A stretch of 64,000 nt of DNA from Costus lasius (lineage: Eukaryota; Streptophyta; Magnoliopsida; Zingiberales; Costaceae), in NCBI GenBank assembly GCA_027563935.2, contig JANVAS020000239.1:1240001-1304000 (forward strand), written 5' to 3'. Under the pieces are notes generated by a model. That model did not search any database. It was not told the origin of the DNA and was given only the letters and a program-made list of their open reading frames with translations. The position numbers and the translations under genes were made by a program. Shown one piece after another: positions 2,814 through 40,200 of the stretch (position 1 is its first letter; each line of letters begins with the position of its first letter).

Positions 2814-4594
2814 GGTGTTCGTTGCTGCAGGAATCTACAACAATGCAAGAACAGCAAGGTCAGTATCAATGTCTAGAATCAATCCAGGACTTAAGAAAGA
2901 TTCTTTTCTCACTATTTTAGCTGACTATAAAATCCATTAAAACAGTCCGAAAGAGTAACACTCTTTTAGTGAGATGGGATCCAGATTTCATACTTGGTCT
3001 CCGCGTCCTGCTCAGGCGAGATAAGATGCACAGAGAGTACAAGCACTAATCTCTGGTAGGCAGTCCCTGCCAATCGCCAACCCGTGCGATTCCCCTTCAC
3101 CTGGGCAATCCAGCAGACTGTGCCAACTGAGTTGGTACAACACAGTCTCTGATCCCACAGATGGCTGCCTCCATGTGCTACCATATGCGCCACATATGTA
3201 GCCTACATGGTCAAGCTGACCCGACCTACTCCCTGGACCACCACGTGCTATGCTGAGCAACGAGAAGCGATAAATCCCTTCTCTGTAACACGCAGGTGAA
3301 ATCACACACCGTCTGAAGATAGATGGACGTGCCCACTGAGTGGGTACAACACGGCTCCAACGATAATCAGAACAGTGAGGTTTCGCGCCAGAAGGCTTAC
3401 GAGCTTGATATGTTAGCGTTGGATTTTAACGGTCCTTTTATCTTCATAACTATCATGCAAACCCTATGGTGATAGCAGAAGATAACTAAACATGCAATTC
3501 TAATTATAAGCAATAAGTAGAAAGCATGCTGATCTTTTGTGGTAAAAGCCCATGAACCCTAAGTAAGACCTTAATTTTACTTAAGTCTTCACTTGAGCTC
3601 TTTAAGGGTCCTTTTATATCTGATCTGGCCCAACCCAGGGCCCTAGCGCCAAATGCAGCTCAGGTGCGCCACCAGCTGCATGAGCCTCATCGCCATGTGT
3701 GCATAGAATTCTTGTCTGATTAAAATACATTTTAATCTATCTAGACAAGATTGACTCGCAGGTCAATTACATGTTATAAATTAAAACAATGTGATTCGCA
3801 GATCACAAATGAATATTAATTTATAATTAACCAGGCACGCAGGCCCCAGCACAGCACACATTTGGGCAACCCACATAAGATTAAATAAACAAGCATCATG
3901 GCATCATTCAATCAATCATGTGATCCATAGACAAAATAAAAATTTTGAAATCCCATTGGAATCAATTTTACTTGTCTTATGTGCCCTACAACCTTACAAC
4001 GGTCCATTGATAGGGATCCACTCATCAATCTAGTTAGATCCATGCCCTTGCATGCACCAAGTCCTAACTGACTCGATTTGACCTAATGGTCAACCATGCA
4101 TGCGCCAAGGGCTGAACAACCTTCAAGAGTTCTGGCAAGCGGGTGTGACCCCGGGCTTAACTCAAGAGTGTTCATTGGTTGTCTCAACCAGACCTCGCTA
4201 CACGCCTGTGATGCAATCGACCTATAGCCACCTCGTGCTTGCGCACAGGTGCCATCTGGTCGATCCATCTAGGCTGTCAGATGGTCTGATCAGACTAGTT
4301 TGATCTAACCTGGAGGATGCTTTCAACCCCATCAACCCGTCTAACGGTTTATTGTAGGTGCGGCTTAGATCTAATATGCAAGTCGCGCATGTCATTTAGG
4401 GTTTTCGAAAAACAACTACAACAACATGATAGAAGCGCAACCAACATACATGCGCCAATATAACTCTCATACATGCGCAACATGAACATACTATCAACTA
4501 GTATAATCGCATGAAGAGAAAACATAGATCTAAGCATCATACATATATGGATCACAAAACATACATAGCAATCATATGATTCATATAAGATCTT
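2814..4594 (-). other. Element A: untranslated leader between PBS and gag
   Basis: About 1.8 kb between the primer binding site and gag of element A. It has no convincing reading frame. It aligns by eye with the leaders of J, D and G, including shared blocks near 3040-3330 and 3600-3860. It contains the conserved 66-nt branched structure annotated separately. Confidence 0.8.
2908..2973 (-). promoter_or_regulatory. Conserved branched RNA structure in copia leader (element A copy)
   Basis: Read on the minus strand: outer stem CTCACT/AGTGAG (2973-2968 with 2913-2908), hairpin 1 AAAGAGT-GTT-ACTCTTT (2966-2950), then hairpin 2 GACT/AGTC with a longer loop. The same architecture occurs in C, D, G and J with compensating changes. 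Function is unknown; a packaging, dimerisation or translation signal is an inference. Confidence 0.55.
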
Positions 4595-4608
4595 GGCTTT
4601 GATACCAA
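4595..4608 (-). other. Element A: primer binding site (initiator tRNA-Met)
   Basis: Minus strand reads TTGGTATCAAAGCC directly inside the LTR end, matching the 3' end of plant initiator tRNA-Met with one A for G change. Confidence 0.8.
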
Positions 4609-4609
4609 T

Positions 4610-6333
4610 TGAAGAGTCCCCTTCAAGGGGGAGTGCAAGCGGATAAAACCCCTTTCAAGAAGGGGGGCCGAAACCCTAAATAAAGGGGGCGCATGCATGT
4701 TTGCTAGGGTTTCAACAACATAATCGTTTATATGCTCATATGATCAACTTTGATGGATTAATTAGATCAAGAAGGAGATCATACCAATGCCATAGGGTTG
4801 AATGTCGGCTTGGAAGAAGAGAGCAACTTAGATCTCCTCCAAAAGTTCACACACAAGATGAAGATTGCTTACTTCCTTGGCGTCCCTTGTGCTAGCAAGG
4901 CACCCAAGCTTGCTTGTCGAATGGAAGGAGATGATGAAAAATCTCTCTTGGCCGATCCTTCTTCTCGTCAACTTACACCACCCAAGAATGTGTGTGTCGT
5001 CGAGAGCCAAAGGGGAGATGAGCGTTAGAGAAGCCTTGTGATCGAATGTGGAGACATTCATCACTTTGCAAAACCGAAATGCCAAAATTGGCAAGTCTTG
5101 AATACATGCGTTATTCGTTCACATGAAGTGAACCAAACGCATATCTCTTCTCTCAAATGAACCAAGCGCTCACATATGAGCCGGTTCAATGCAGTTGGTC
5201 CAATGACCAAACCAAATCAGCCCAAGAATTGGTCCAGACCAAAATAAACCCTAAGGTTCAAAATCTGACCGTTCATCTTTTGATGCCCTTGATTTCATCG
5301 ATCTAGCATCCACACTCTCGATCGAAGCTTACCGATCTCAAGCCCTAATCAATCAAACATGATCAGACTGGATCTCACTTACAATCAGAGTTTAAACTCC
5401 TTTAAACTGAATCAAAACAATCCAGTCCACACGATCTGACTCAAGTAAGCCATATCACCAAATTGTGCGACCCTAAGGGTTTCCTTTAAATGTCGGTAAC
5501 GATAACTCACGTTATCACAATCAGTGAGGGGTATCTAGCAACACATCACTGTCTCCCGATATAAAGGAAAGAGTCTTCCAAGACTACACCCAAACCACAG
5601 CACAAGTGTGAATCCACTTCACAAGGCATACATGTATCCTTTGCCACTGGATGTTCTTATTGGACAAGCATGTCAAGCTTGTAACTCCAATACGATGAGC
5701 ATGATTAGATCAGATGATCATAGTCATCTGGGTATGGCCATACACTTTCTCAATCATCTCATCCAAGGGGGCCCTTTTAGAACATCACACTCCTTGAACA
5801 AGGAGACGGCAATCCTATGTCTATCACTAGTGTCCTAACCTGACTCATGATCATTATCCAAGATAGTTTATAACCATTATCTTTCAAATGATATTGAACT
5901 ACCTCAAAACAATGACAATCATCATTTAGAAACACAAGTGATCTCAAGTCAAAGGACATGTGCCACTTGTAGCATACAAGGATTATTCACATTGTGACAA
6001 GCAATTGAATATCTTAGTAGGGTCTGTCCAGTACATCCAATGTACCCATGAGTCTACATCTTATTCCATGCTCGAAGCATCCTATAAGATTAGAACACAT
6101 GTTAGTCTCAATCATATCAAGGTTGTCTCATGTTCACCAAGATATCTCGACTAAGGACTTAACTGTCAGCCTAGCTGAACAGCTTTGAGACATTATTCAG
6201 TAGTACACTTATTACAGCAGACAAGGTAACAAACTGAATAACAACCATGCCTTTATAAACACAAGAGTTTATTACATGATACTGATACAATCCCAAAGGC
6301 CTCAAACATTAGCCTTAAGGGCATACCCCAACA
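4610..6333 (-). mobile_element. Element A: 5' LTR (Ty1/copia)
   Basis: A 1724-bp LTR on the minus strand, starting TGTTGGGGTATGCC at 6333 and ending in CA at 4610, next to the PBS. It aligns over its length with the LTRs of J, H and D. The 5 bp outside it (AGATA, 6334-6338) are the predicted target duplication; the other copy lies left of the window. It lies inside the 3' LTR of element B. Confidence 0.9.
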
Positions 6334-10066: not shown

Positions 10067-10623
10067 CCCCCTTCCTTCCCCCTCGTCTTAACTCTTGAAC
10101 TCTTGCCCCTTTTGTCCCCTTGTCGCCACTCCTAGAAAGAGAAAGAGGGATGTTCGCCCATTGCCTCTCCTCTTCCCTTTAGTGAGTTCGGAACTTTGGA
10201 AGTTCCTTGGCGCCCTCCTCTCCAAAGTTGGACTTTGGCTTCGGTTGATTCCGGTTCGGATCTTGGTGGAGTGCTTCAAGAGTTGGACTCCGACGAAGCT
10301 CCATCTCCTCTCCTTGGCATCTCCTCTGGAGTTGGCGCAAGTGATTGAGGAAGTCTCCCAAAGGCGTGGATCTTCTTCCCGAGGCTAGCACCGGGCGTGG
10401 AAGAAGAGGATTCAAGGTTCGGCTGTGTGTGAGACTGCAGAGGGCGGACATTTGGGCGACTGCATCACATCACTTAATTTGCATCAAGGTATCATCTCCT
10501 ACTCACCGTGTCAATCTCCTCGCAAGACTCGATCTTCTTGGTTTTTGGGACTGGCCTGTTTCGGCGATTGCTTCTACTGTGCTTGTCTGTAAAAATTTTA
10601 AAATCCCCGGGGTTTCCCAACAG

Positions 10624-10636
10624 TGGTATCAAAGCC
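10624..10636 (+). other. Element C: primer binding site (initiator tRNA-Met)
   Basis: TGGTATCAAAGCC one base after the CA end of the LTR. Confidence 0.8.
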
Positions 10637-12267
10637 ATCTTGCGAACTCGAACAGTGTTTTATGCTTTTATTGTATGCTCACATGCCATCTGAATTTTTT
10701 TGAAAAATTGCATATGCGCATGAATTTTTCTAAGTAAGAAAAATTGTAAGTTTTTCATTCCTAACATCTATTCGATCTTTTTGGTTTTTCACTTTCTTCA
10801 CATGGTGGGTTAGACCCATATGTGGGAGGATTAATTTCTCCCCACGCATATAGGATAGTCCTATTGTGTGGGACTTGTCAAAGATTATGGGCATATGATT
10901 GTCCTAATCTTGGCAGGTTAAGGATTGCAAGGGTAGACGGCTAGCGTGCTTGGAGCATGCATGCATCACTTATGGACTCCTAAGAGAAACGAAAAGTCCT
11001 AGATTTGCGAACGGACATTGAGGTTGAAAGACATGTTTTCTAAGAAACTAAAACTAAAGTTTTATGTTTTCTTGAGCATATAGAAAAGCATGAGATGATT
11101 GTACATCGTGTTGTGGTCATAGTCAAGCCCCTTGTATGCCTGTGATGTCTTTATGTGAGGCCTGCGTGCTGCTTTTTCTTTTTGTTTTGTAAACGCACAA
11201 AGAAGATTAGGGGCGCATCCCTCATGGAGCTTACATCTTGGCGCATCAACCATGATGGCGCATCTTGCTTGGTGGCGCAAGTAAGGACTTGGCCGAACCT
11301 AGGGTTCGAGTGCTATCCCTCTTGGCACAAGCATTATGGCGCTTCATGCATGGAGGAGCCATCAAGGTATTGGCCAAACCCTTGGGTCTGCATGCTATGC
11401 CGTGATATGGAGGACCTTGAAGCTGCACTTAAAGATAAAGCTTAGTGGCGGCTAGGTTAGGTCTATTTGGGGCTTGTCACCTATGTCAAGCATTGAACAT
11501 CCTTTGGCATGTGATGGTTCATTGCGTTGATTAGGCTATGACCACATCGCTTGTTTACTATTTTTCAATATTTGCTAAAGCATGCCTGGTTGTGTTTTAT
11601 CCTTTTGTTATCACTATAGGGTTGCATGCCTGTAATGTTAGACAAAAGATAAAACTAAGAGGATGAGACCTCAAAAACCCTCAAAATAATATCGAGTCTG
11701 TAGCCTTCTGACGCGTAGCCCTCGTCAAGCTATCGATCAGTGTTGTGCACTGTTTCCCACCCTAGTGGGGCACACCCACTTATCCTTAGAAGGTGTGTGG
11801 TGGCAATAGTTGCCTGAGTCCAGTTACAATCCTGAACGTGCCCTAGCAAGGAAGCTCGTTGGCCCTGGGCATAACGGTTAGGACATACTTTACTAGATTT
11901 CATATGTGGTGGCCACATGATGGAATTCTAGAGGCAGCCTCGAGAGGTTAGGGTTTTGTGTTGCTCTAGCCCTAGCTGGGCACGAAATGCTTGAACTGTC
12001 TTGAGAAGGGGAATTGCCCTGGCGGCAATCGACCGGCGTGCCTACCTTACGAAGCATGAGTCACTTTGTACATCTCATCCCACCCTAGTGGGACGCGAAG
12101 CCTCGTGTGGAATAGGGATCCCATCTCACTAGGAAATCTCAGATTTTCGGATTGACTTTATGGGTTGTCAATTCGATTAAAATAGTGGGAGCCACGATCA
12201 TTTAATGCAAGTCCAAATTAAATGATTTGAAGTAGTACTAATCTGCTATCTTGCTTGTTGTAGATCA
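10637..12267 (+). other. Element C: untranslated leader
   Basis: About 1.6 kb without a convincing gene between the PBS and gag. Its last part (about 11700-12250) aligns with the leaders of D and G, including the CCCATCTCACT block and the branched structure. Around 11210-11400 there are several dispersed TGGCGCA repeats. Nothing else recognised. Confidence 0.7.
12125..12189 (+). promoter_or_regulatory. Conserved branched RNA structure in copia leader (element C copy)
   Basis: Outer stem CTCACT/AGTGGG, hairpin 1 GGAAATC-TCA-GATTTTC (12132-12148) and hairpin 2 ATTGAC/GTCAAT. The stem sequences differ from those in A, D, G and J, yet pairing, 3-nt loop and CGG spacer are kept, which supports a selected structure. 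Confidence 0.55.
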
Positions 12268-12363
12268 ATGGTTACGAACAATAGCGGTTTGTCACTGCGA
12301 TCCCCTCTTGACAAGGATAAGTTGGTTGGATCCAACTTCATGGACTGGTATTAGAACTTGAGG
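12268..12363 (+). pseudogene. Element C: start of gag, cut by element D
   Basis: ATG at 12268 opens a frame resembling the gag N-terminus of A and J (SLRSPLDKDKLVGSNFMDWY). A stop codon (TAG) follows the conserved FMDWY motif. D then interrupts it at 12364. The rest of C gag-pol is expected right of the window. The start lies a few codons upstream of the equivalent ATG in A and J. Confidence 0.7.
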
Positions 12364-13997
12364 TGTTGGGGTATGCCCTTAAGGCTAATGTTTGAGGCCT
12401 TGGGTTATTATCAGTATCATGTATAAACTATGTATATGTTTTTAAAGGCAATTGTTGTTATTCAGATTGTTGCATTATCTGCTGCTATATATATACTTCT
12501 GAGTAATGTCTCAATGATGTTCAGCTGTGCTGACATTCAGAGATGTCCTTAGTCGAGATATCTTGGTGAACATGAGATAGCCTTGATATGATGGAGACTA
12601 ATATGTGTTCTAATCTTGTAGGATGCTTCGAGCATGGAATAAGATTTAGACACATAGGTGCATTGGATGTACTGGACTGACCCTACTTAGGATATTCAAT
12701 TGTTTGTCACAATGTGAATAAATCCTTATAAGCAAGCAAGTGGTATATTCCCTCTGACTTGAGATCACTTGTGTTTCTAAGTGATGATTGGCATTGTCTT
12801 GAGGTACTTCAATATCATTTGAAAGATAATGGTTAAGGATTATCTTGGATAGTGGGCATGAGTCATGTCAGGACACTGGTGATAGATAAAGGATTGCCTC
12901 TCCTAGTTGGAGTGTGATGTTCTACTGGGGCCCCCTCCGGATGAGATGGTTGAGAAAGTGTATGGCCATACCCAGATGACTATGTTCATCTGATCTAACC
13001 ATTCTCATCGTGTTGGAATTACAGGCTTGACAGGCTTGTCCAACGAGAACATCCAGTGTCAAAGGGAACATGTATACTGAGTGAATTGGATTCACACTTG
13101 TGCTATGGTTTGGGAGTAGTCTTGGAAGACTCTTTCCTTCATATCGGGAGACAGTGATGTGTTGCTAGATACCCCTCTCTGATCGTGATAACATATGTTA
13201 TCGTTACCGACAATGAAGGAAACCCTTAGGGTCGCACAATTTGATGATATGGCTTACTTATGTCAGATCGTGTGGACTGGAATTATTCTAGTTCAGTTTA
13301 AAGCAATTTAAACTCTGATTGGAAGTGAGATCTAGTCTGATCATATTTGATTGATTAGGGCATATGATCGGTAAGCTTCGATCGGGAGAATTGATGCTTG
13401 ATCGTAGAGATCAGAAGGTTCAATGAGATGTGTGGTTAGATCTTGAACCATGAGGTTCAGAGAGATCAAGACCATGGCTGGTTTGATTTGGTTCTTGAAC
13501 CAAATGAAATAGAACCGGTTCACTTATGTGAACGCATGGTTCAAAGGGGAGAGGAGTTTTCGATGGCTTCATGGGGAGTTATGCACTTACTATATTTGGA
13601 AGCCGTTTTTCTTTTTGCAACTCTCTCCCACGTTTTCGAACGCCTAACGCCTCTCGCCCCTTTCTCCTCTCGTGCGTGGTTCGTCTTCACGGAGAGTGAA
13701 AAGGAGTTCGGCCAGCAGGAAGGAACACATCTCATCACACGATCAAAGACTCCTTAGTGTCTTTGCTAGCACAAAGAGCACAAGGAAGAAGGCAACATCA
13801 TCTTTTGTGTGATACCTTTGGAGAAGGGGCACTCGCCTCTTTCATCTTCTAAGCCGCCACTCAAAGCATGGCAATGGTAATGTTCTAACCTATCTTTTCG
13901 AGGTTGATCATATGTTTAAGTCAAGCGATTTTGAAACCTAGCATTTCCGCTGCTGCACACTCTAGATGCGCATGTGACCTAGGTTTACCTCCTTTCA
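12364..13997 (+). mobile_element. Element D: 5' LTR (Ty1/copia), 1634 bp
   Basis: Starts TGTTGGGGTATGCCC and ends CTTTCA before the PBS. The 3' partner is 19757-20165 continued at 30980-31410 across gypsy E. About 13 differences were seen over the roughly 840 bp shared, so D is older than E. It contains the palindrome GATAACATATGTTATC at 13187-13202. The 5 bp upstream (TGAGG, 12359-12363) are the presumed target site in C gag. Confidence 0.92.
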
Positions 13998-13999: not shown

Positions 14000-14011
14000 T
14001 GGTATCAGAGC
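14000..14011 (+). other. Element D: primer binding site (initiator tRNA-Met)
   Basis: TGGTATCAGAGC, a full 12-base match to the expected primer complement, two bases after the LTR end. Confidence 0.88.
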
Positions 14012-15848
14012 ATGGTTTTTGACTTGATACATATGATTGCTATCTTGTGATCCATGTTTATTTTATGCTTTTGGTAGATCTACTAGATGCGCATGCTTTT
14101 GTTATCATGAGAAAATACATGCTATGTGTTCATACCAAATGTTAGATCTACATGTATTTTTCATTCAAGCTTATGCATGTGATCTTTACTTGCGCTTGTC
14201 ATAGAAGTTTTCAATCAAAACATCATCATGCGCGACCCTCACCTAGATCTATCTAAGCGCCTACTTCAAAGACTTAGACGGGTTAACAATGTTGAAGTCG
14301 TCAGTCAAGTCTGGACCCAATAGCCTAATCAGACCATCTGACAGCCTAGATGGGTCGGCCGGATAGCACCTGTGCGCAAGCAATACAGGTGGCTATAGGC
14401 CTACTGCGGAAGGGCGTGTAGCGATGTCTGATTGAGGCACCTAGTGAACGATCATGATTAAGGCACGGGGTCACACCCGTTTGCCAGAAATCATGTGGGA
14501 CGTTCAGCCCTTAAGGCATGCATAGTTGACCATGTGGTCAACGCAAGTCGGTCATGACTGGGTGCATGCAAGGGCAGTGGGTCTGACTTGGTCTAACGAG
14601 TGGATACCTGTTAATGGACCGTTGTAAGGTAGTAGGGTACATAAGGAAATAAAATTGATGCCATGGGTTTTTTTTTTCAAAAATTTTATTTCTATTTGGA
14701 TCACATGTTTGCATGTTTAACATGTTGAATGGGTGTTTATTTAATCTTATGTGGGCTGCCCTTATTTTGTGTGCTGTGCTGGGGCCTGCGTGCCTGGAAT
14801 TAAATATAAATTTTGTTGTGATCTGCGAATCACGCTTTATTTTATGAAAATGTATAATTGACCTGCGTGTCAAACCATGTCTAGATAGATTAAAATGTAA
14901 TTTGATCAGACATGAGCACATGAGCACACAAGGCAGAGGCGCTTGCAGTCAGTGGCTTCACCAGGTGGGAGGTCTAGAGTTTGACTCTAGAGCAGGCGCA
15001 TACTGCCTGGAGGGCATTTGGGCCCGAGCTGGGCCACATGAAGTACAAGAGTCCCATAAAGAGCTCAAGTGAAGACTTTTGTGAAACTAGGGTTTTACTT
15101 AGGCTTTTATGGGCGTTTACCACATAAGATAATGGTGCTTTCATTTACTATTTTAAGTAATATTAGCACAAGCATGTTTTATTCTTCTGCTATCACTGTA
15201 GAATTTGCATGATAGTAAGAAGATAAAAAAAGACCGATAAAATCCAACGTTAATATCAAGCTCGATTGCCTTCTGACGCGAAACCTCACTGTTCTGACTA
15301 TCGTTGGGGCCGTGTTGTACCCACTTAGTGGGCACGCCCAGCTATCTTCAGACGGTGCGTGATTACACCTACATGCTACAGAGAAGGGATTTATCGCTTC
15401 TCGTTGCTCAGCATAGCACGTGGTGGTTCAGGAAGTAGGTCAGGTCAGCTTGACCATATAGGCTACATATTGAGCATATGATAGTTATATGGAGGCAGCC
15501 ATCTGAGGAATCAGAGACTGTGTTGTACCAACTCAGTTGGCACAGTCTTCTGGATTGCCTAGATGAAGGGGAATCGCACGGGTTGGCGATTGGCATGGAT
15601 AGCCTACCAGTGACTAGTGCTTGAACTCTCTGTGTATCTTATCTCGCCTGAGCGGGACGCGGAGATCAAGTATGAAATCTGGATCCCATCTCACTAAAAG
15701 AGTTTCACTCTTTCGGGCTGTTTTATTAGATTTTTCAGTCAGATAAAATAGTGAGAAAAGAATCATTCTTAAGTCCTGGATTGATTCTAACATGCATACT
15801 GACCTTGTTGTTCTTGCTATGTTGTAGATTCCTGCAGCAACGAACACC
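14012..15848 (+). other. Element D: untranslated leader
   Basis: About 1.8 kb between PBS and gag with no convincing gene; it aligns with the leaders of A, G and J. In-frame TAG at 15825-15827 lies just before the gag frame. The sequence TTGTTGTAG there looks like a plant 3' splice site, but splicing is not shown. Confidence 0.75.
15690..15755 (+). promoter_or_regulatory. Conserved branched RNA structure in copia leader (element D copy)
   Basis: Outer stem CTCACT (15690-15695) with AGTGAG (15750-15755), hairpin 1 AAAGAGT-TTC-ACTCTTT (15697-15713), hairpin 2 GGCTG (15716-15720) with CAGTC (15736-15740). It lies about 95 nt before the gag frame. Confidence 0.55.
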
Positions 15849-18800
15849 ACAGGGCTCAATTTGCGATCCATATTGGAAAAGGAGAAGTTTGCTGGGCCAA
15901 ACTTCTCAGACTGGTACAGACAGCTTAAGATTGTACTTAAAGCTGAGAGGAAACTGTATGTCCTTGAGTCGGCAATACCGGCTCAACCCGCTGCGAACGC
16001 TGCAAGGGCGGTTCGGGATGCTTATGAGAAGCACGTCAGTGATAGTACTGATGTCACTTGCCTTATGCTTGCGTCAATGACGCCCGAGCTTCAGCGTCAG
16101 CATGAGGATTTGTCTGCTATTGATATTATAGCAAATCTCAAAATGCTGTATGCTGCACAGGCAAGGACTGAACGCTATAACTTGACAAAACTTTTCTTTC
16201 ATAGCAAACTGACTGAAGGGAGTCCAGTGGGAGCTCACGTACTCAAGATGATTGGGTACAAAGAAGCTCTAGAGAAACTGGGACATACCATCAATCAAGA
16301 ACTTGTTGTAGATATTATTTTGCAGTCTCTCCCGGCTTCTTTCGATCCGTTCATCATTAATTTTAATATGAACAAAATCGACTGCACTCCGGCAGAGTTA
16401 CTGAACATGCTCTGTACTACAAAGCAGACACTTCAGAAGGGAAAGCCTTCATCCTCTGTCTTAATGATTCCTTCAAGGAATAAGAAGAAGGGGAAGAAGG
16501 GCAAAACCCCTATCAAGAGCTACAACAAGGCTTTGAAACAAAAGGTGAAGCGGTCAAAGGACAACAGATGTTTCCATTGTGGCCAGCTAGGTCACTGGAA
16601 GAAGGACTGTAGAGCGCTCCAAGGAGAGAAGAAGGGAAGCAAGCCTTTCACTTCTGGCTCAGGTATTTACGTGACTGAAGTCATGGTAGCTTCTTCTATT
16701 TCATGGGTGTTGGACACTGCATGTGGAGTTCACATTTGTTCAAATGTTCAGGAACTCAAGAGAAGAAGACAGGTGGGACAGCATGAGGTGGACCTACGAG
16801 TTGGAAACGGGGCACGGGTTGCTGCTGTTGCTGTAGGGGAATATAACATCTCTTTACCATCTGGTTTTGTATTAGAACTTGACAATTGTTATTTTGTACC
16901 AAGCATAACTAAGAATATTATCTCTATTCCTGCTCTTGTCAGGAAAGGTTTTTCTTTTGAAAGCAAAACTTCACAGTGTTGTATTTCATATGATAATATT
17001 GTTTATGCAACTGGGTCGATTAACAATGGGTTATACATGTTGGACATGGAATGTTCTGTACAACAAATTGATAACAAGAAAGCCAAGTATGCTGATGATA
17101 GCACCTTATTATGGCATAGTCGTTTAGGCCACATTAACAAGAAGCGCATTAAGCGGTTGCATGATCGTGGACTGCTGGGATCATTCTCCTATGAGGAGTT
17201 TGATACATGCAAAGCTTGTTTAATGGGTAAAATGACGAAGACTCCTTTTACTAATAAAGGTGAAAGGGCTTCAGGTTTACTTGACCTTATTCACAGTGAT
17301 GTGTGTGGGCCGTTTAGTAAACATGCCAGAGGTGGCTATTCATACTTCATTACTTTTACTGATGATTTCAGTGGGTATGGTTATGTCTATCTAATGAGAC
17401 ATAAGAGTGAATCTTTTGACAAGTTCAAAGAATTCAAAAACGAAGTACAGAATCAGTTAGGCCGTAATATCAAGGCACTTCGTTCAGATCGAGGTGGAGA
17501 ATACTTGAGTCGTGAGTTTACTGACTATCTAAAGGAGTGTGGGATTATCTCACAGCTCACTCCACCAGGAACACCGCAATGGAATGGTGTGTCCGAAAGG
17601 AGAAATAGATCCTTATTGGATATGGTTCGTTCTATGATGAGTCAGGCTACTCTACCTTACTCCTTTTGGGGATTTGCACTGGAAACAGCTGCAAAGGTGC
17701 TAAACCGAATGCCATCCAAGGCCGTTTCAAGGACACCATATGAGTTATGGTATGGGAAACAGCTGAGCTTGACATTTATTAAAATCTGGTGTTGCGAGGC
17801 TTATGTCAAAAAGCTCGCCTCTGGGAAACTGGAGAGCAGATCAAATAAATGTATGTTTGTCGGTTACCCTAAAGAAACTAAGGGTAATTATTTCTATGAT
17901 CCCAAGGAGAACAAAGTATTTGTTGCTCGAACGGCTATTTTTCTTGAGAAGGAATTTCTTCTGCAAGAGGCAAGTGGGAGAGAAATAAAGGTGGATGAAA
18001 TTCCAGAAGTGGGACAAAGTAGTCAAGCTCAGTTGGATGAGCCTGAGCAAATAGATCAGGTTGATCTTTAACCTGAGGCTCAGATGTCACGGGAACCGCG
18101 TAGATCGGGAAGGATCCGTCGTCAGCCTGAGCGCTATGACGGAGTCTACATCATTAATGATGAACCCCTCACTTATGCGGATGCGGTCAGTGGACCGGAA
18201 TCAGCAAGATGGCTTGAAGCTATGCGAGCCGAGATGGACTCCATGTTAGACAACCAAGTCTGGGATTTGGTTGATCCGCCTCCGGGAGTAATCCCTATAG
18301 GCTGTAAGTGGATCTTCAAAAAGAAGAAAGACATGGATGGTAACGTGGTTACCTATAAGGGCAGGCTAGTTGTGAAAGGTTTCAAACAAATCTACGGGAT
18401 AGATTATGATGAAACTTTCTCTCCTGTAGCCATGTTCAAGTCCATTCGAATTATTCTCGCGATAGCAGCATATTATGATTATGAGATCTGGCAAATGGAT
18501 GTGAAGACCGCTTTCCTTAATGGAAAACTGGAAGAGGATGTGTATATGACACAGCCTGAAGGTTTCATCAATCCATCAGAACGTCATAAGATATGCAAAT
18601 TAAAGAAGTCCATTTATGGACTAAAACAAGCATCGAGAAGCTGGAATTTTCATTTTGATGAATCAGTTTGTGAATTTGGTTTCATCAAAAATGAAGATGA
18701 CCCGTGTGTATATAAAAGGTTTAGTGGGAGCGTGATTACTTTCCTAGTCCTCTACGTCGATGATATTTTAATCATTGGAAACGATATTCCTGAACTACAT

Positions 18801-20165: not shown

Positions 20166-20167
20166 TG

Positions 20168-20185
20168 TAAGATCCAAGGATCTTA
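20168..20185 (+). repeat. Inverted repeat at the start of LTR E
   Basis: TAAGATCC-AA-GGATCTTA, perfect 8-bp arms with a 2-bp spacer, directly after the TG of the LTR. The same arms occur at 27970, 32480 and 40226. Confidence 0.85.
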
Positions 20186-21991
20186 AGTTCTGGTAAGCAT
20201 TAATTTTGACTTAAATAAAATTATTGACTGAGTTATTATTCCTGAGTATTGATTGTTAATTTATGATAAATTAATTAGAGATTTTGATTATCAATTTATA
20301 GTTAATTAACTGGTTTATTGATTGTTAATTTATTGTAAATTAATTAGAGATTAATGGTGGTTAATCTATTTGATTATTGATTGATAATTTAGAATAAATT
20401 AATTAGACCTTATTGGTTAATTAATTATACTCTATTGGATAATTAAATCCTTATTGGATGTTAGTTAAATCCTTAATGGATTTTCGTTAAGTGATTGGTT
20501 AATGGTTAAGTTAATTAAATAATTAGTCATTTATGAGATATTGGGTTATTGGGTTTAAATTTGAATTAGTGGAATATAAGAGGTAATTAAGTCCTAATCG
20601 GATTAACCATAATTTGAATTATGGTTAACGGGTTAAAGAACTTGAAAACCGAAATTGTAAAAGGGAATTTCGGCTAGGGTAGTTTGTTTTGGCGAAATTC
20701 TAGCTTGGAAGAACCCTAGGCGACGGCTTGAAGGGAGAAGGCGATTCTTGGAAGCTTGGAGGCGATTTTTTTCTTCCTTTTGGCGAAATTCTTTGAGGTG
20801 AAACTTCCTTGGTGAATTCTTGAAGATTTCTTGGGTGACTTAGGGGCTTTAGGCGATTTTGTTGTGGAGTTTTCTTCCTTGAATTCTCGGTTTTAGAGGT
20901 GAGTGGAATGTCTTGTTTGATCTATCCATTTAGTTGTGCTTATGTTAAATAATACACTTGAATTCTTGGAAAATTTCCATGTTAAAACCGAAATTATGCA
21001 AAGTATATTTAAGGTATGAAAACCGAATTTAGAATATTTGTTCATAAGATTCTTGTTTACTAAGGTTTAATTTAAGTTGGAAATTTAGAGTATTTTCCTT
21101 GAAACCGAATTCAAAATATTCTTGTTCTTCATGAAAACCGAAATTTTTGTAAAGGTGTATATCTCATGAAAACAAAAAAATTGTGGCATGAAATTTAAGG
21201 TATTTTTATAGGGGTTTTTGGTAGCTTTAGATCATTGAATTTTGAGCATGAATTTCTTGTTGATTAGATATTTTATAAAGAATTTTGGGTAATATTAAGC
21301 CAATGATTGTTGTAGCCGAAACCTTGTTAATTGTATTTAAACCGAAATTTGATGATTTTAGTTAACATGTTTACATGTTTACATGATTTAAATTTTAAGT
21401 TGATTTTATGGATGCTTGATACATGATATATATATGGTTATGTATTTATGCAATGTTGAGAAATTGTTTGGAAAATTTGGGTGATAACATAGTAAGTTTT
21501 GATTGAACTAATCAGCATGAAATCTAAGGACCACACCATATTATATGATTGTTAATATTATGTAATTATGTGATTGTTAAATATTAAGTGTTTATGTGAC
21601 CTTTGGAATTTTATGTTGATCATTATGTGATTATGTGAAATATGAATATTATGGATTATGTGAATTTGGAAAATTAGGTGGTTATGTGATGGTTAGGACT
21701 AAGGCTAGGTGTAACTATGAACTCAAGGGGATAGTCCTTATGTGATATGTTAAGGGTTTGAATTTCAACCCGGTATTGTGATATGTGAGGGGGGTTGATG
21801 ATCAGCCTGCCTATTATGATTATTGTGATGGGGGCTGAAATTCAGCCTGTCCGATGTGATTTTTGTGATGGCTATCCTAGAGTTAAGTTGACACTTAGGA
21901 GTCCACCTTTGTGAAATATGTCCACCTATGTGAAATTATGAAATAAGATATGTGTGTTGTCCAGTAGGAACCTTTTGGGAGAACGGGTTTT

Positions 21992-22275
21992 GACCCAAAG
22001 TGCTATGTCTTGGTCGGACAGGGGCCACCTCTTGATGTCATTACTCTTTTATGTGTTGGGAATGATATAAGACCCAAAGTGCCATGTCTTGGTCAGACAG
22101 GGGCCACCTCTTGATGTCATCATTCTCGTTTTATGTTATGGCGTGATAGACCAGCGTGCCACGTCGTGACCTGACGGGGGCCACCTCCTGATTCTATTCT
22201 CGTTTTGTGATATGGCGTGATAGACCAGCGTGCCACGTCATGACCTGGCGGGGGCCACCTCCTGATTCTATTCAC
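21992..22275 (+). repeat. Four-unit tandem array in LTR E
   Basis: Units start at 21992, 22071, 22149 and 22223 (74-79 bp each), each with a GACC..AGTGCCAYGTC core and GGGGCCACCTC. LTRs of F have three units (34279, 34358, 34432). Confidence 0.82.
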
Positions 22276-22949
22276 TATCCATGATTATGTGTTGCATGCG
22301 GCTCCCAGTGCTTTGGCCAAGCCGGGTTAGACCATATTGGTCACTACTGAATATGCTGGACAACTAGGTTAAATATGTGTTGGTGTGTTTAGTTGGTTTA
22401 GAATATGTGTGTTCGGTTGGTTTAGAGTATAACTCTAGAACCTGAGGTTATTATATGTTGGTGTGTATATTTTTGACTGTTTATATGACTTTTGCATTGA
22501 ATTTGTTATTATGTGTTGACATGATATCCTGTTAAAGATCTTTAAAATAATCTGCATATGTTTTTGAGAGTATGTTATGGATGGTCAATTAGACTATCCA
22601 CTCACTGGGCTGTGTAGCTCACCCCTCATTATTTTCAGGTGTAGAGCAGGGGCGCAGTTAGCATTATATGGATACTGTGAATTATGCTTAATGTGTTTAT
22701 GCTTATGATGCCGGTTGTGGCTAAACCTTATGATTTACATGAACTATGTGAACCATGTGATGTGAACAGTGTGAACTATGTGAATTTGTGTTGCCAGACT
22801 GTGGCAGTTAAATGATTTTGACTTTTGTGTCACCGCGGGCTTCAGCCTGGTTTCGGTGTTTGGTATTAGTTTATAAAATCGATTTTGTGGATTTGTTTTG
22901 AAATTGGAGTTGATGTGTATTTTTGGCAATCGGTTTTGATACAACTGTA

Positions 22950-22972
22950 ACGTGCATATGTCTAGTGCACGT
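22950..22972 (+). promoter_or_regulatory. Covarying hairpin in LTR E
   Basis: ACGTGCA-TATGTCTAG-TGCACGT: 7-bp stem and 9-nt loop about 200 bp before the LTR end. F carries the same loop with different but complementary stems. Confidence 0.55.
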
Positions 22973-23175
22973 ATTGCGTGGTGGCAGGTACCTTTATGTG
23001 ATTTATGAGATTTGTGATTCGAAGATTTTATATGTTTGGAGTTTTGAAAATTTTCAGATCGTGTTTTTTCTTGAACTCGGTTTTACCTAGCATTTGATCG
23101 ATCTTATATGAAACATCCTATTACTTTTGCGTTTGTGTTATTTGCTTGGGGTTAAGTATGTGGGATGTTACAGAA

Positions 23176-23188
23176 TGGTATCAGAGGA
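23176..23188 (+). other. Element E: primer binding site
   Basis: TGGTATCAGAGGA, an 11-base match to the initiator tRNA-Met complement, three bases after the LTR end. Confidence 0.75.
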
Positions 23189-23269
23189 GTTGGCTAGCTA
23201 AAACTTAGTTTGGGGGAAAACATGTTTGTGTATTGCTAGACACCTAATAGGTTTATGATTGTTTTTCCT

Positions 23270-23320
23270 GACTATGATATGTGTGTGACTATGATATGTG
23301 TGTGACTATGATATGTGTGT
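23270..23320 (+). repeat. 17-bp unit repeated three times before gag of E
   Basis: GACTATGATATGTGTGT three times in tandem, 14 bp before the gag ATG; F has one copy at the same place. Confidence 0.85.
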
Positions 23321-23333
23321 GTAGGAATTTAAG

Positions 23334-26300
23334 ATGGTGCGAACCAGAGGTAATGCTAGTGATGAGGGCGAGCAGACCCCGAACCTCACTAGAACTATTG
23401 AGGCCTTGACTGGCATGGTACAGCAACAAGGTGCCATGATTGAGAGGCAAGCTCAGATGCTGCAGCAGCAGCAGACTCAGCACCAAGAAGCACAACATCA
23501 GCTTTTGCAGCAGCTGACTCAAGAGAGACCCCAGACTACTACTCGGGCAGTGGGGGATGACTCTCAGGAGGGCGCTCACAGGCGTTATGCCTCGTTAGTG
23601 AGTGAATTTCAGAAACTGGGTCCTAGCTCATTTTATGGGGGCTCAGAATCCAGTACTGCTGAGAACTGGCAGTTGGTCTTGGAAAAGATTTTCCAAGTTA
23701 TGCGCTGCTCAGATGAGGATAAGCTATGTTTGTCCACCTATATGATGCGTGGCGACGCAGATGAGTGGTGGAAAGGAGTTGTGAGACTAGCAGCGGAAAG
23801 GCAGGAAACAGTGGATTGGCCTTACTTCCTATCTCAATTTAATGAGAAGTATTTTCCAGATAGCTTGGTAGAGGACCGAGAGGTGGCATTTATTCACCTG
23901 GAGCAGGGTGATATGATAGTGGACCAGTATGAGCTACAGTTCACGAAATTGGGAAAGTATGCTCCTCACCTGATAAACACTGAAAAGAGGAGAGCTACCA
24001 AGTTTCTGAGAGGTCTCAGATGGGATATTCGAGAGCAGGTTGGTGCTCAGCACTTGGAGACCTATGTCGAGACAGTTGGGCGAGCACGCACTATAGAGAG
24101 GTATATATCTGAGAGGAGTTCTCATGCTACGGTGACAGTAGTTCCTGCAGCTGAGGCGGCGGTTCCTCAGTATGGCAGTGGCGGCAAGGGTAAGAAGTAC
24201 CCTAGGCATAAAGATTATAAGAAGAGCAGGTATAAGCCTTACTCCTACAAGGCACCGCAGCAGTCCAGGGATGCACCGCAGCAGTTCAGAGGTGCCAGGG
24301 ATGTAAGAAACAGTAACACTGAGAACGGGATTTGCAGCTACTGTGGGCTCAGGGGACATCTAATGAAAGATTGTCATAGGAAGAATGGCATGTGCTTCAA
24401 ATGTAAGAAACCTGGGCACATGGCCAGGGACTGCAAGGAGCCTGAGATGCAGCCTAGAGGCGCAGATAAGCCTACAGTCCAGACTAGAGTTTATGCTGTG
24501 GCTGAGAAGGATACACGAGCTTCCCGATCCGTTGTGGAAGGTACATTATTTGTATTTGATCAGTTAGCTCGCATTCTATTTGACCCTGGTGCAAATTTGT
24601 CTTTTGTCTCTGTTAAGTTTGCTGCATGTTTACCTGTTGTACCTAAGATGCTAGATTATGCTGTGTCTGTCAGTACTCCTTTAGGAAAGTCATTGTCTAC
24701 AGACACTGTATGTGCTGATTGTGTAGTGCATGTAGAGGGTTATGAGTTTCTGGTAGACTTAATTCTCTTAGACATGCAAGATTATGATGTCATCTTAGGA
24801 ATGGACTGGTTGTCTTCGCATCATGCCTCGGTGGATTGCTTTGAGAAAGTAATCACTTTGAATATGCTTGATGGGAATCGAATTTTTGTGAGAGGTCTAG
24901 TGTCAGACCAAGGACCACATGTGATATCTTTCCTGCAGGCCAGGAAGTTACTTGCTAGTGGGTGCAAGGGTTATCTTGCACATGTCAAGGTGCAGGATGA
25001 TTCTAATTCTGATCTGACTCAGATGGCAGTGGTGAAAGAGTTTCCTGATGTATTCTCTGAGGAATTTACAGGTTTACCACCAGTTAGAGAAGTGGAGTTT
25101 GGCATTGAGTTGGCGCCGGGTACGGCACCCATCTCCAGAGCTCCTTATCGTATGGCTACTTCAGAGTTGGCCGAGCTTAAGAAGCAACTGGAAGAGTTGC
25201 TGGAAAAAGGGTACATCCGGCCTAGTGTTTCTCCCTAGGGAGCGCCAGTGTTGTTTGTGAAGAAGAAAGATGGAACCCTGAGGATGTGTATAGACTACAG
25301 GCAGTTGAATCAAGTGACCATTAAGAATAAGTATCCTCTTCCCAGAATTGATGATCTGTTTGATCAGTTACAGGGAGCTACAGTGTTCTCTAAGATTGAT
25401 CTGAGATCAGGGTATTATCAGCTTAGAGTCAAGGATGAGGATATATTTAAGACTGCTTTCAGGACCAGGTATGGGCATTTCGAATTTTTAGTTATGCCTT
25501 TTGGACTGACGAATGCACCTGCTGTCTTCATGGATTTGATGAACAGGGTATTCCATGAGTTGCTTGACTCTTGTGTAGTAGTCTTTATAGACGATATTTT
25601 GGTATACTCACGGACTACTTCAGATCATGTCAGGGATTTGCGCAAAGTGCTGGAGGTTCTGAGGAAGAAACGGTTATATGCCAAGGCTAGTAAGTGTGAA
25701 TTCTGGTTAGAGAAGATCAGTTTTCTGGGACATGTGATTTCTGGTCAGGGAGTGTCTGTGGATCCTGTTAAAGTACAAGCTATCCTTGATTGGGGAAGAC
25801 CTACTAGTGCTACTGAGATCAGGAGTTTTCTGGGTTTAGCAGGTTACTACCGGCGATTTGTTGAGGGATTCTCCAAGCTGGCGGGTCCTTTAACCAAATT
25901 GACCAGAAAGGAGGCCAAGTTTGTTTGGGATGATAAATGTGAAGAGAGTTTCCAGGAGCTGAAAAGAAGGTTGACTAGTACACCAATCCTCATTATTCCT
26001 AATGATGGGGAAAGGTTTACTGTCTATACGGATGCCTCAGGCAAAGGGTTGGGTTGTGTCTTGATGCAGAAGGGTTCTGTGGTAGCCTATGCTTCCAGAC
26101 AACTGAAGGAGTATGAATTGAACTACCCTACTCATGATTTAGAGTTGGCAGCCGTAGTCTTTGCTTTGAAGATATGGCGTCATTATTTGTTGGGTCAGGA
26201 ATTTGATCTATTCACTGATCACCAGAGTCTCAAGTATATCTTCACTCAGAAGGAGTTGAACATGAGACAGAGGAGATGGATGGAGTTGATCAAAGATTAT

Positions 26301-27938
26301 GATTTCTCTATTCAGTATCAGGCTGGAAAGGCCAATGTAGTAGCGGATGCACTGAGCAGACATCCAGTTACTTCAGTAGCTGCTTTACGAGTCAGTGAGT
26401 GGCGGTTACTGCAGGAGTTCAGCGATCTCAGGATCAGTGTTACTCCTAGAGTTCAGACTGGTTATGTGGCTTTTCTTAGAGTACAGTCTGCTTTGTTGCA
26501 GAAGATCAGAGATCAGCAGTCTGTGGATCCGAAATTAGTCCAGATCAGGGATAGTCTGATTGATGGCGCAGTTCAGGACTTTAGTGTGTCTGATGATGGT
26601 ATTCTTCGGTTTCGTGGAAGGGTATGTGTCCCTGAGGAACCGAGCTTGAGGAAAGAAATATTGGAGGACAGCCATAACTCCAAATATTCTCTACATCCTG
26701 GCGTGATTAAAATGTATCAGGACCTCAAGAAAAATTTTTGGTGGCCGGGTATGAAGAAAGAAGTGCTTGATTTTGTCTCTAGGTGTTTGACTTGTCAGAC
26801 TATAAAGGCCGAACACCAGAAACCTGGGGGTTTGTTGCAGTCTCTTCCTATTCCTGAGTGGAAGTGGGAATGCATCAGTATGGATTTTGTGTGTGGTTTG
26901 CCCAGAACCAGATTGGGTCATGATGCTATTTGGGTGATTGTTGATAGACTTACTAAATCAGCCCATTTTCTCCCGATTAAGATGACTTATTCATTAGAGA
27001 GGCTGGCCAGATTGTACATTGATGAGATAGTCAGACTACATGGAGTGCCAGTTGACATTGTGTCTGATAGGGATTCTCGATTTCTGTCCAGATTTTGGAG
27101 GAGTTTACAGGAGGGTTTGGGTACTAAGTTGAGTTTTAGTACAGCATACCATCCTCAGTCTGATGGCCAGACAGAGCGTACTATACAGACTCTAGAGGAT
27201 TTGTTGAGAGCCTATGTGGTTGATTGGAGTTCTGAGTGGAACCGGGATCTATCTTTGATAGAATTCACTTATAATAATAGTTTCCACTCCAGTATTCAGA
27301 TGGCTCCTTATGAGGCCTTGTATGGGAGAAGGTGTAGGACTCCCTTGTGTTGGGAGGAAACTGGTGACAGGATGATTTTGAGATCTGATGCAGTTCAGGA
27401 GACTACTGATAAGGTCAGAGAGATCCAGGATAAGCTGAAAATTGCTCAGGACAGACAGAAGAGTTATGCTGATGACCGTCGTCGTCCTTTGGAGTTTATG
27501 GTAGGAGACCATGTGTTCTTGAAAGTGTCGCCTACTAAGGGTGTTATGAGATTTGGCAAAAAGGGCAAGTTGAGCCCTAGGTTTGTAGGCCCTTTTGATA
27601 TTATTGAGAGAGTTGGTCCAGTAGCTTACCGTTTAGCTTTACCTCCTACTTTGGATCATGTACATAATGTATTCCATGTCTCTGCTTTGAGGAAATATCA
27701 TCCTGATCCATCTCATGTGTTGGAGTTGGAACCTCTTCAGGTTCAGAGTGATTTGACATTCGAGGAAAGACCTCTCCGGATTGTGGATAGAAAAGATAAA
27801 GTTCTGAGGAACAAGACTATACCTTTAGTCAAGGTTATTTGGGGAAACCAGTCAGTTGAAGAAGCAACTTGGGAAACTGAAGCTGATATGAGGAAAAATT
27901 ATGCTTACCTCTTTGATGATATGGATGCTGAGCTTTAG
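23334..27938 (+). pseudogene. Element E: Ty3/gypsy gag-pol polyprotein with one amber codon
   Basis: ATG at 23334 opens one frame to the stop at 27936-27938, about 1534 codons, with a single in-frame TAG at 25236-25238 where F has TGG. Order: Gln-rich N-terminus, retrotransposon gag domain, two CCHC zinc knuckles (24333 and 24393), aspartic protease core FDPGANLSFVS near 24577, reverse transcriptase with FIDD at 25584-25595, RNase H with [10 protein letters not shown] near 26027, HHCC zinc-binding region near 26670, integrase with DFVCGLP, SDRDSRF and DGQTER (D-X35-E), and a C-terminal region [18 protein letters not shown] like the chromodomain end of plant chromoviruses. The amber codon lies just before the first RT motif, so pol is cut while gag and protease are intact. 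Probably Tekay/Del lineage by domain order and LTR length. Confidence 0.94.
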
Positions 27939-27945
27939 AGGACTA

Positions 27946-27967
27946 AAGCTTTATAAGGAGGGAGGAA
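27946..27967 (+). other. Element E: polypurine tract
   Basis: Purine-rich AAGGAGGGAGGAA directly before the 3' LTR start. Confidence 0.82.
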
Positions 27968-30900
27968 TGTAAGATCCAAGGATCTTAAGTTCTGGTAAGC
28001 ATTAATTTTGACTTAAATAAAATTATTGACTGAGTTATTATTCCTGAGTATTGATTGTTAATTTATGATAAATTAATTAGAGATTTTGATTATCAATTTA
28101 TAGTTAATTAACTGGTTTATTGATTGTTAATTTATTGTAAATTAATTAGAGATTAATGGTGGTTAATCTATTTGATTATTGATTGATAATTTAGAATAAA
28201 TTAATTAGACCTTATTGGTTAATTAATTATACTCTATTGGATAATTAAATCCTTATTGGATGTTAGTTAAATCCTTAATGGATTTTCGTTAAGTGATTGG
28301 TTAATGGTTAAGTTAATTAAATAATTAGTCATTTATGAGATATTGGGTTATTGGGTTTAAATTTGAATTAGTGGAATATAAGAGGTAATTAAGTCCTAAT
28401 CGGATTAACCATAATTTGAATTATGGTTAACGGGTTAAAGAACTTGAAAACCGAAATTGTAAAAGGGAATTTCGGCTAGGGTAGTTTGTTTTGGCGAAAT
28501 TCTAGCTTGGAAGAACCCTAGGCGACGGCTTGAAGGGAGAAGGCGATTCTTGGAAGCTTGGAGGCGATTTTTTTCTTCCTTTTGGCGAAATTCTTTGAGG
28601 TGAAACTTCCTTGGTGAATTCTTGAAGATTTCTTGGGTGACTTAGGGGCTTTAGGCGATTTTGTTGTGGAGTTTTCTTCCTTGAATTCTCGGTTTTAGAG
28701 GTGAGTGGAATGTCTTGTTTGATCTATCCATTTAGTTGTGCTTATGTTAAATAATACACTTGAATTCTTGGAAAATTTCCATGTTAAAACCGAAATTATG
28801 CAAAGTATATTTAAGGTATGAAAACCGAATTTAGAATATTTGTTCATAAGATTCTTGTTTACTAAGGTTTAATTTAAGTTGGAAATTTAGAGTATTTTCC
28901 TTGAAACCGAATTCAAAATATTCTTGTTCTTCATGAAAACCGAAATTTTTGTAAAGGTGTATATCTCATGAAAACAAAAAAATTGTGGCATGAAATTTAA
29001 GGTATTTTTATAGGGGTTTTTGGTAGCTTTAGATCATTGAATTTTGAGCATGAATTTCTTGTTGATTAGATATTTTATAAAGAATTTTGGGTAATATTAA
29101 GCCAATGATTGTTGTAGCCGAAACCTTGTTAATTGTATTTAAACCGAAATTTGATGATTTTAGTTAACATGTTTACATGTTTACATGATTTAAATTTTAA
29201 GTTGATTTTATGGATGCTTGATACATGATATATATATGGTTATGTATTTATGCAATGTTGAGAAATTGTTTGGAAAATTTGGGTGATAACATAGTAAGTT
29301 TTGATTGAACTAATCAGCATGAAATCTAAGGACCACACCATATTATATGATTGTTAATATTATGTAATTATGTGATTGTTAAATATTAAGTGTTTATGTG
29401 ACCTTTGGAATTTTATGTTGATCATTATGTGATTATGTGAAATATGAATATTATGGATTATGTGAATTTGGAAAATTAGGTGGTTATGTGATGGTTAGGA
29501 CTAAGGCTAGGTGTAACTATGAACTCAAGGGGATAGTCCTTATGTGATATGTTAAGGGTTTGAATTTCAACCCGGTATTGTGATATGTGAGGGGGGTTGA
29601 TGATCAGCCTGCCTATTATGATTATTGTGATGGGGGCTGAAATTCAGCCTGTCCGATGTGATTTTTGTGATGGCTATCCTAGAGTTAAGTTGACACTTAG
29701 GAGTCCACCTTTGTGAAATATGTCCACCTATGTGAAATTATGAAATAAGATATGTGTGTTGTCCAGTAGGAACCTTTTGGGAGAACGGGTTTTGACCCAA
29801 AGTGCCATGTCTTGGTCGGACAGGGGCCACCTCTTGATGTCATTACTCTTTTATGTGTTGGGAATGATATAAGACCCAAAGTGCCATGTCTTGGTCAGAC
29901 AGGGGCCACCTCTTGATGTCATCATTCTCGTTTTATGTTATGGCGTGATAGACCAGCGTGCCACGTCGTGACCTGACAGGGGCCACCTCCTGATTCTATT
30001 CTCGTTTTGTGATATGGCGTGATAGACCAGCGTGCCACGTCATGACCTGGCGGGGGCCACCTCCTGATTCTATTCACTATCCATGATTATGTGTTGCATG
30101 CGGCTCCCAGTGCTTTGGCCAAGCCGGGTTAGACCATATTGGTCACTACTGAATATGCTGGACAACTAGGTTAAATATGTGTTGGTGTGTTTAGTTGGTT
30201 TAGAATATGTGTGTTCGGTTGGTTTAGAGTATAACTCTAGAACCTGAGGTTATTATATGTTGGTGTGTATATTTTTGACTGTTTATATGACTTTTGCATT
30301 GAATTTGTTATTATGTGTTGACATGATATCCTGTTAAAGATCTTTAAAATAATCTGCATATGTTTTTGAGAGTATGTTATGGATGGTCAATTAGACTATC
30401 CACTCATTGGGCTGTGTAGCTCACCCCTCATTATTTTCAGGTGTAGAGCAGGGGCGCAGTTAGCATTATATGGATACTGTGAATTATGCTTAATGTGTTT
30501 ATGCTTATGATGCCGGTTGTGGCTAAACCTTATGATTTACATGAACTATGTGAACCATGTGATGTGAACAGTGTGAACTATGTGAATTTGTGTTGCCAGA
30601 CTGTGGCAGTTAAATGATTTTGACTTTTGTGTCACCGCGGGCTTCAGCCTGGTTTCGGTGTTTGGTATTAGTTTATAAAATCGATTTTGTGGATTTGTTT
30701 TGAAATTGGAGTTGATGTGTATTTTTGGCAATCGGTTTTGATACAACTGTAACGTGCATATGTCTAGTGCACGTATTGCGTGGTGGCAGGTACCTTTATG
30801 TGATTTATGAGATTTGTGATTCGAAGATTTTATATGTTTGGAGTTTTGAAAATTTTCAGATCGTGTTTTTTCTTGAACTCGGTTTTACCTAGCATTTGAT

Positions 30901-30974
30901 CGATCTTATATGAAACATCCTATTACTTTTGCGTTTGTGTTATTTGCTTGGGGTTAAGTATGTGGGATGTTACA
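27968..30974 (+). mobile_element. Element E: 3' LTR (Ty3/gypsy), 3007 bp
   Basis: Same length as the 5' LTR with three seen substitutions, which makes E the youngest insertion in the window. Followed by the target duplication CTTGT at 30975-30979. Confidence 0.95.
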
Positions 30975-40194: not shown

Positions 40195-40200
40195 AGGACT

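Follow-up and report, generated by a model that had tools for sequence, protein, structure and literature searches.

Retroviral psi signals, including those of HIV-1, MLV and MMTV, comprise several hairpins between the primer site and gag and are present in unspliced RNA. For LTR retrotransposons, the division of one transcript between translation and replication has been presented as a major question in work on the barley copia element BARE, for which separate RNA pools for translation and replication, with splicing, are described (PMC3735527). According to these passages, a 104-nt intron within gag gives rise to a Gag-only RNA, BARE2 is mentioned as having conserved dimerisation and packaging signals, and the splicing of BARE was then the sole case shown in Copia besides copia itself (PMC3735527). 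Drosophila copia, Ogre and EVADE are described as LTR retrotransposons with spliced RNAs (PMC3735527, PMC12786077), and plant LTR retrotransposons as generally without introns, Ogre and EVADE excepted (PMC12786077). The rice locus MIKKI is described as a domesticated, LTR-retrotransposon-derived locus with a spliced transcript; its intron 4 arose with a solo LTR insertion and makes a miR171 decoy (PMC5599236). In CaMV and RTBV, a structured leader is portrayed as uniting a packaging signal with a splice donor and with control of translation (PMC5902531). Reported noncoding parts of plant copia elements include, in Sirevirus, palindromic repeats close to the TATA box as well as a polypurine-tract stem (PMC2829016) and, in grapevine, copia leaders of varying length (PMC2576258).

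Five elements (A, C, D, G and J) in the window, that is, the whole 64,000-nt stretch of DNA analysed, carry a conserved fold before gag. The carrier is a plant Ty1/copia LTR retrotransposon: gag, integrase and RT domains in copia order, LTR, primer binding site (PBS) and polypurine tract (PPT) are all present. The domains found in the window elements are Retrotran_gag_2, Pol_BBD, gag_pre-integrs, rve and RVT_2, and the PPT AAGTGGGAG precedes the 3' LTR. By the direction of gag, C, D and G lie on the plus strand and A and J on the minus strand. An open frame of D with the copia gag through integrase domains spans 15861-18071 (plus). The frame of J at 49084-50988 (minus) comprises Retrotran_gag_2, a zinc knuckle, Pol_BBD, gag_pre-integrs and rve. 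Primer binding sites are located at 4596-4607 in A (minus), 10624-10635 in C (plus), 14000-14011 in D (plus), 45336-45347 in G (plus) and 58384-58395 in J (minus). A, D, G and J are mutually 90-97% identical (473-608 aligned nt), whereas C shares 54-60% with these four. BLAST within the window revealed no sixth full copy.

Direct repeats at 47091-49121 and 58398-60428 (99.4% identical) contain the LTR of J and 328 bp of the gag of G. The 3' half of J seems to have been replaced via rearrangement, because the repeat copy at 47091 joins the J interior at 49115-49121. A further LTR element at 51349-56981 (repeats 51349-53286 and 55044-56981, 99.4%) is nested in the J leader, upstream of the fold. 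Two large related elements at 20166-30974 and 32477-43220 are probably young insertions, since their terminal repeats are nearly identical (99.9% and 99.4%).

An earlier note on this DNA had described a three-way junction in each of the five elements. The 65-66-nt segments, with an outer stem and the hairpins H1 and H2, are indeed present at 2908-2973 in A (minus), 12125-12189 in C (plus), 15690-15755 in D (plus), 46820-46885 in G (plus) and 51083-51148 in J (minus). The outer stem CTCACTA/TAGTGRG was confirmed, and H2 pairs as first given. H1 is AAAGAGT/ACTCTTT with the loop GTT in A and J, TTC in D and TTT in G; C has GGAAATC/GATTTTC with the loop TCA. Two details were too strict. The CGG spacer is not constant: in C, its C is the last base of H1 and GG opens H2. 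The H1 loop of exactly 3 nt applies to the five window copies but is not general, as the relatives L004 and L005 have 6 nt. The paired changes among the five elements are real, but they are not five independent tests; the covariation within the window rests mainly on C because A, D, G and J are close copies. Folded alone, D prefers a different H2 pairing, G a shifted H2, and J shows small changes.

The structure exceeds 66 nt. In the five window copies and in L004/L005, a hairpin Hd with the loop AAGWCC comes next, so that the layout is a 7-bp outer stem, a 7-bp H1, H2, a linker ending in AUAAAA, and Hd. The latter is located at 2875-2904 in A (minus), 12196-12227 in C (plus), 15759-15788 in D (plus) and 51050-51079 in J (minus), each with the loop AAGUCC, and at 46889-46918 in G (plus) with the loop AAGACC. 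Folding z-scores of 107-115-nt pieces of seven sequences ranged from -2.66 to -3.71, which is modest by itself. A loop-loop contact between H2 and Hd, considered by eye, was ruled out because D and L005 cannot form it. That TAGTGGGAG might act as an internal polypurine tract, an idea prompted by AGTGGGAG being the PPT core, was dropped because A, D, G and J have AGTGAG.

Bacterial assemblies were searched for proteins related to the gag-integrase protein; this yielded plant-like DNA, including L004 and L005. This copia DNA occurs in assemblies from two different bacteria and is probably contamination. L004 and L005 are 90% identical over 3.0 kb around the fold and 98% alike over 4.3 kb. Being close to each other, they were counted as one lineage, so that three lineages were compared: A/D/G/J, C and L004/L005. 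Both have ATAAAATAGTGGGAG, a 7-bp H1, a long H2 and a next hairpin with the loop AAGACC. A 115-nt piece of L004/L005 folds into outer stem, H1, H2 and Hd like the window copies; in a 97-nt piece starting further 5', the outer stem uses another 5' partner and an extra hairpin appears. A covariance model trained on the five window copies only finds L004/L005 with 53 bits, compared with 18 bits (E 3e-4) for a pair-free model. This covariance model has no match in L001-L003, and the fold is therefore not general in copia. In the distant relative L002, which is without the fold, four leader hairpins with CCCUUCGGUGG were seen at about 1750-2190, the first two following UUAGUGGGAG.

Other databases were searched. 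Rfam had 0 matches at gathering for the window and 0 at E<=5 for 11880-12300. Phages had 0 matches, and viral contigs had 0 matches to the first pattern and 0 to the J protein. Protein alignment to viral contigs gave 6 stretches, none confirmed, and the second pattern gave 20 stretches, taken as chance. The plasmid records H1-H3 and H4-H7 are pol relatives; in the two fetched, the matches show no gag N-terminus or leader. Hammerhead ribozymes and retrozymes have the core CUGANGA...GAAA. A pattern scan of the leaders of A, C, D, G, L002 and L005 does not assign the fold to these classes: the core is absent in A, C, D, L002 and L005, and the single match in G is about 1.1 kb away from the fold.

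A 15-base probe covering the linker and 3' arm only, one side of the structure, was run against the own genome (1.28 Gb). The probe found 372 sites, the reversed probe 4. Fifty of the 372 sites were read, namely the first 30 listed and 20 picked among 100 listed (11 of the 20 for a last base other than T). The covariance model matches all 50 (30/30 and 20/20). Twenty-nine of the first 30 score 46-85 bits; L104, with a foreign 5' half, has 27.7 bits, and L095 contains one additional weak match of 18 bits. The second 20 sites score 53-85 bits. By eye, Hd is absent or broken in L091, L102 and L131 among the 50 loci, and in L104 the 5' half is. The probe came from the 3' side only. These matches, those in L004/L005 and the pair counts below are not due to chance. 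Copies fetched by similarity also match the model (37/37), as expected. A search of the own genome with the L005 segment gave 0 matches, a result of little weight.

Covariation was counted in an alignment of 31 sequences (A4), made with MAFFT and without use of the structure. In A4, 91.8% of the cells are paired, compared with 88.8 (sd 0.3) in shuffles, which do not correct for relatedness, and 31-50% with the structure slid along the alignment. Changes on both sides occur in 10 pairs and 35 cells, versus 5.0 and 11.7 in shuffles. The observed paired cells, covariation score and double changes exceed those of all 500 shuffles, and 50 of 500 reach the observed number of pair types. The clearest H1 covariation concerns columns 22-43, with A-U in 21 and G-C in 9 sequences. 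In Hd, columns 111-122 have A-U in 18 and U-A in 10, and columns 101-132 have A-U in 14, G-U in 12 and G-C in 4. Double changes affect 4/7 pairs of H1, 5/11 of Hd, 1/8 of H2 and 0/8 of the outer stem. Pairing fails in 29 of 31 sequences at the drawn pair 48-76 and in 14 of 31 at the pair that closes the H1 loop.

A smaller alignment of seven sequences from the three lineages (A3) was aligned to the model and hence leans toward it; 96.7% of its cells are paired versus 80.8, with double changes in 15 pairs and 31 cells versus 9.5 and 11.4. They affect 5/7 pairs of H1, 5/5 of H2, 4/7 of Hd and 1/7 of the outer stem. In A4, G.U cells outnumber A.C cells 41:27 when only columns 48-76 are left out, and 36:12 when the loop-closing pair and three rearranged copies are excluded as well; the count omitted pairs that are mostly G-U.

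An identity profile was calculated for 27 of the 30 loci (L091, L102 and L104 left out) in 30-nt bins, with zero at the start of TAAAATAG. Identity is 0.92 at -20 to +9, the linker and 3' arm, and 0.80-0.92 from -140 to +99. It is 0.73-0.77 from -260 to -141 and 0.45-0.67 from -800 to -261. In gag, from +100 to +399, it is 0.61-0.78; in these 27 loci, the fold exceeds gag in conservation. Four of the 30 loci with the fold (L094, L102, L114 and L118) have no gag match within 1.5 kb.

The larger family was thus favourable to compensatory pairing: L004/L005 and 50/50 own-genome sites carry the fold, and double changes exceed both controls. The expectation of covariation in all three stems was borne out for H1 and H2, the latter weakly in A4 (1/8), but is not clear for the outer stem. 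The earlier description as a selected RNA element is supported by the out-of-sample matches, the compensatory changes and the conservation above gag in 27 loci. The conserved fold is almost certainly a selected RNA structure.

Its surroundings appear structured as well. RNAalifold applied to -330 to +75 of the same 27 loci gave 132 pairs, 47 of them with at least one double change and 91% of cells paired, the structure being derived from the alignment on which it is counted and the counts standing without a shuffle control. Covarying hairpins are located 5' of the junction, and the domain is about 330 nt in extent. High identity and RNAalifold pairs upstream indicate, therefore, that the fold makes up the 3' portion of a more extensive structured domain. 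In C, this wider domain up to the 3' splice site would cover 11880-12263 (plus), with approximate limits and upstream hairpins predicted from related own-genome copies. A four-sequence leader alignment (A, C, D and G; 213 drawn pairs, C unpaired in 77 and D in 6) was rejected as too small and misaligned. By eye, a leader hairpin of the type GUGUUG..CCCA-CUYAG-UGGG..CAC recurs at least twice per element, at 15310-15339 and 15518-15547 in D and at 11740-11776 and 11954-11987 in C.

The leader resembles an intron at its 3' end. Just upstream of gag, the window elements carry TACTRAY or a close variant of it, together with a run of pyrimidines and TTGTAG. Each fold segment ends 72-74 nt before this proposed 3' splice site, and the gag frame follows directly. 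The proposed acceptor is TTGTTGTAG at 2835-2843 in A (minus), with a branch-like TACTGAC within 2857-2865, and at 12255-12263 in C (plus), with TACTAAT within 12236-12244 and a gag-frame ATG at 12268 after the acceptor. G and J have the same candidate at 46949-46957 (plus) and 51010-51018 (minus), and D has TATGTTGTAG at 15818-15827 (plus). The leaders of L004/L005 terminate in TTTTTGTAG. Under a strict pattern, the branch-like motif is present in 73, the acceptor in 74 and both in 68 of 84 loci, which were parsed out of 87 (3 unparsed). L001-L003, without the fold, also show by eye a stretch like a 3' splice site before the gag ATG. The putative branch point and acceptor are conserved across copies and lineages, and the evidence for the acceptor is good.

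A donor-like site in U5, 122-194 nt before the primer site, is readable in all eight elements considered (A, C, D, G, J, L002, L004 and L005). With a slash at the proposed exon end, it is ATGGCATTG/GTATGA at 4779-4793 in A (minus; the exon ends at 4785), TGCATCAAG/GTATCAT at 10480-10495 in C (plus; intron from 10489), ATGGCAATG/GTAATG at 13868-13882 in D (plus; intron from 13877), ATGGCATTG/GTAAGA at 45189-45203 in G (plus) and ATGGCATTG/GTATGA at 58550-58564 in J (minus). The other sites are CAAG/GTATGG in L002, ACAA/GTAAGC in L004 and TCAA/GTAAGT in L005; C reads CAAG/GTATCA. Scored with a donor matrix and a cut-off of 6, six of the eight pass with 6.3-8.6 (D, G, C, L002, L004 and L005). The choice of donor was partly by eye, because A and J fall below the cut-off and, in A, C, D, G and J, rival U5 sites have equal or better scores. 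The U5 site is also present in 9/9 parsed of 14 fetched copies, which are close relatives of A or C, and in both of the pieces with a primer site among six further pieces. No strong common donor was found between primer site and acceptor. A weak donor-like CAA/GTATGA just 5' of the fold is common to A, D, G and J (e.g., 15671 in D) and missing in C.

In A, D, G and J, the proposed join from U5 leads into the gag frame. D and G are without the exon-2 ATG of A and J, and an ATG in the LTR exon (U5) would therefore start the frame; their exon-2 ATG may have been lost through decay. The leaders of A, C, D and G contain 38-54 upstream ATGs, compared with a shuffle mean of 31-36. A genomic search for the A-type exon junction with up to 2 mismatches gave 6 matches, none an element copy and attributable to chance only; genomic spliced copies are not expected often, because spliced RNA would be without the primer site. 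The leader is probably a spliceosomal intron with its donor in U5, before the primer binding site.

The proposed order of the leader is 5' hairpins, three-way junction, Hd with its AAGWCC loop, branch point, 3' splice site and gag. Splicing from U5 to gag would yield a Gag-Pol mRNA lacking the primer site as well as the fold, and unspliced RNA would retain both. Gag may recognise unspliced genomic RNA by the fold, which would then be a signal for packaging, dimerisation or both. This reading is placed first because an intronic leader would keep fold and primer site on the same molecules and in unspliced RNA only, the form that requires such a signal. Recognition by a partner fits, because the loop AAGWCC and the linker AUAAAA are conserved while the stems change. 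From sequence, we assign a probability of roughly 0.4 to a packaging or dimerisation signal in unspliced genomic RNA. More tentatively, the LTR-internal intron could hold the primer site and a large RNA domain as a signal of genome identity, with one splice deciding between Gag-Pol mRNA and genome and the LTR exon supplying the gag start codon in some copies.

The position of the fold does not separate packaging from splicing control or export. As a brake beside the branch point, the fold could slow the use of the 3' splice site and spare enough unspliced RNA. Branch point and acceptor follow it immediately on the 3' side, with 8-9 nt between the end of Hd and the branch-like motif in A, C and D, and identity stays high between fold and acceptor. 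In a variant, the weak donor shared by A, D, G and J would define a short intron made up of the fold and little else; C is without this donor. The structured domain, however, reaches some 330 nt upstream, beyond the need of a local brake, and the conserved loop and linker suggest a partner. Control of splicing is rather unlikely.

The earlier note had considered packaging, dimerisation and gag translation. The first two are retained. Translation looks less likely, given the many upstream ATGs in four leaders and the intron-like leader. Internal entry or a ribosome shunt past the long leader to gag in unspliced RNA would suit a structured leader directly before gag with many upstream ATGs, and pararetroviral leaders are described as acting in this way (PMC5902531). 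The proposed splice would, however, take the leader out of the mRNA. In D and G, without the exon-2 ATG, the frame reaches the U5 ATG after the proposed splice, though ATGs may have decayed. A translation element is improbable.

Some simple retroviruses have a constitutive transport element through which intron-containing RNA is exported. The fold could likewise let intron-containing RNA exit the nucleus: with an intronic leader, unspliced transcripts would have to be exported by some route, and they alone would carry the fold. Rfam offers no match, and we regard an export element as quite improbable. It is very improbable that the fold is due to chance, or is a palindrome at the DNA level with no function as RNA: the single-sequence z-scores would allow it, but the L004/L005 and 50/50 out-of-sample matches, the pair counts above controls and the 372 versus 4 sites oppose chance, and the strand-specific excess of G.U over A.C argues against a palindrome.

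A conserved fold inside an apparent leader intron, together with the primer site, would open the question of how one transcript serves translation and replication to direct testing in an abundant family. Such elements can also be found by means of the fold, a noncoding marker. Among the matches listed from the open-access PMC literature, titles and abstract openings revealed none on such a fold or leader intron; most subscription journals are outside this scope.

As in retroviral psi, several hairpins lie between primer site and gag; given the proposed splice sites, they would stay in unspliced RNA and be missing from the spliced form. Unlike psi, the proposed donor precedes the primer site, inside the LTR, and the fold adjoins the 3' splice site; there is no homology. 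With BARE, the elements share the plant copia background and, as proposed here, a split between translation and replication at the RNA level by splicing. The proposed intron is the leader before gag, in contrast to BARE, and the BARE passages describe no such fold. Loss of the primer site with a leader intron would also set these elements apart from copia, Ogre and EVADE as described. MIKKI is likewise derived from an LTR retrotransposon, and splicing is proposed here too, but MIKKI is described as a domesticated locus. Pararetrovirus leaders are alike in being structured, a likeness by description only; the shunt structure belongs to caulimovirus. Sirevirus motifs and grapevine copia leaders are noncoding parts of plant copia as well, but the source passages describe no such leader fold. 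Structured leaders of retroelements are already known, and the domain described here is taken as a new form. The intron-like appearance of the leader, with a putative donor in U5 before the primer site and an acceptor just before gag, looks new.
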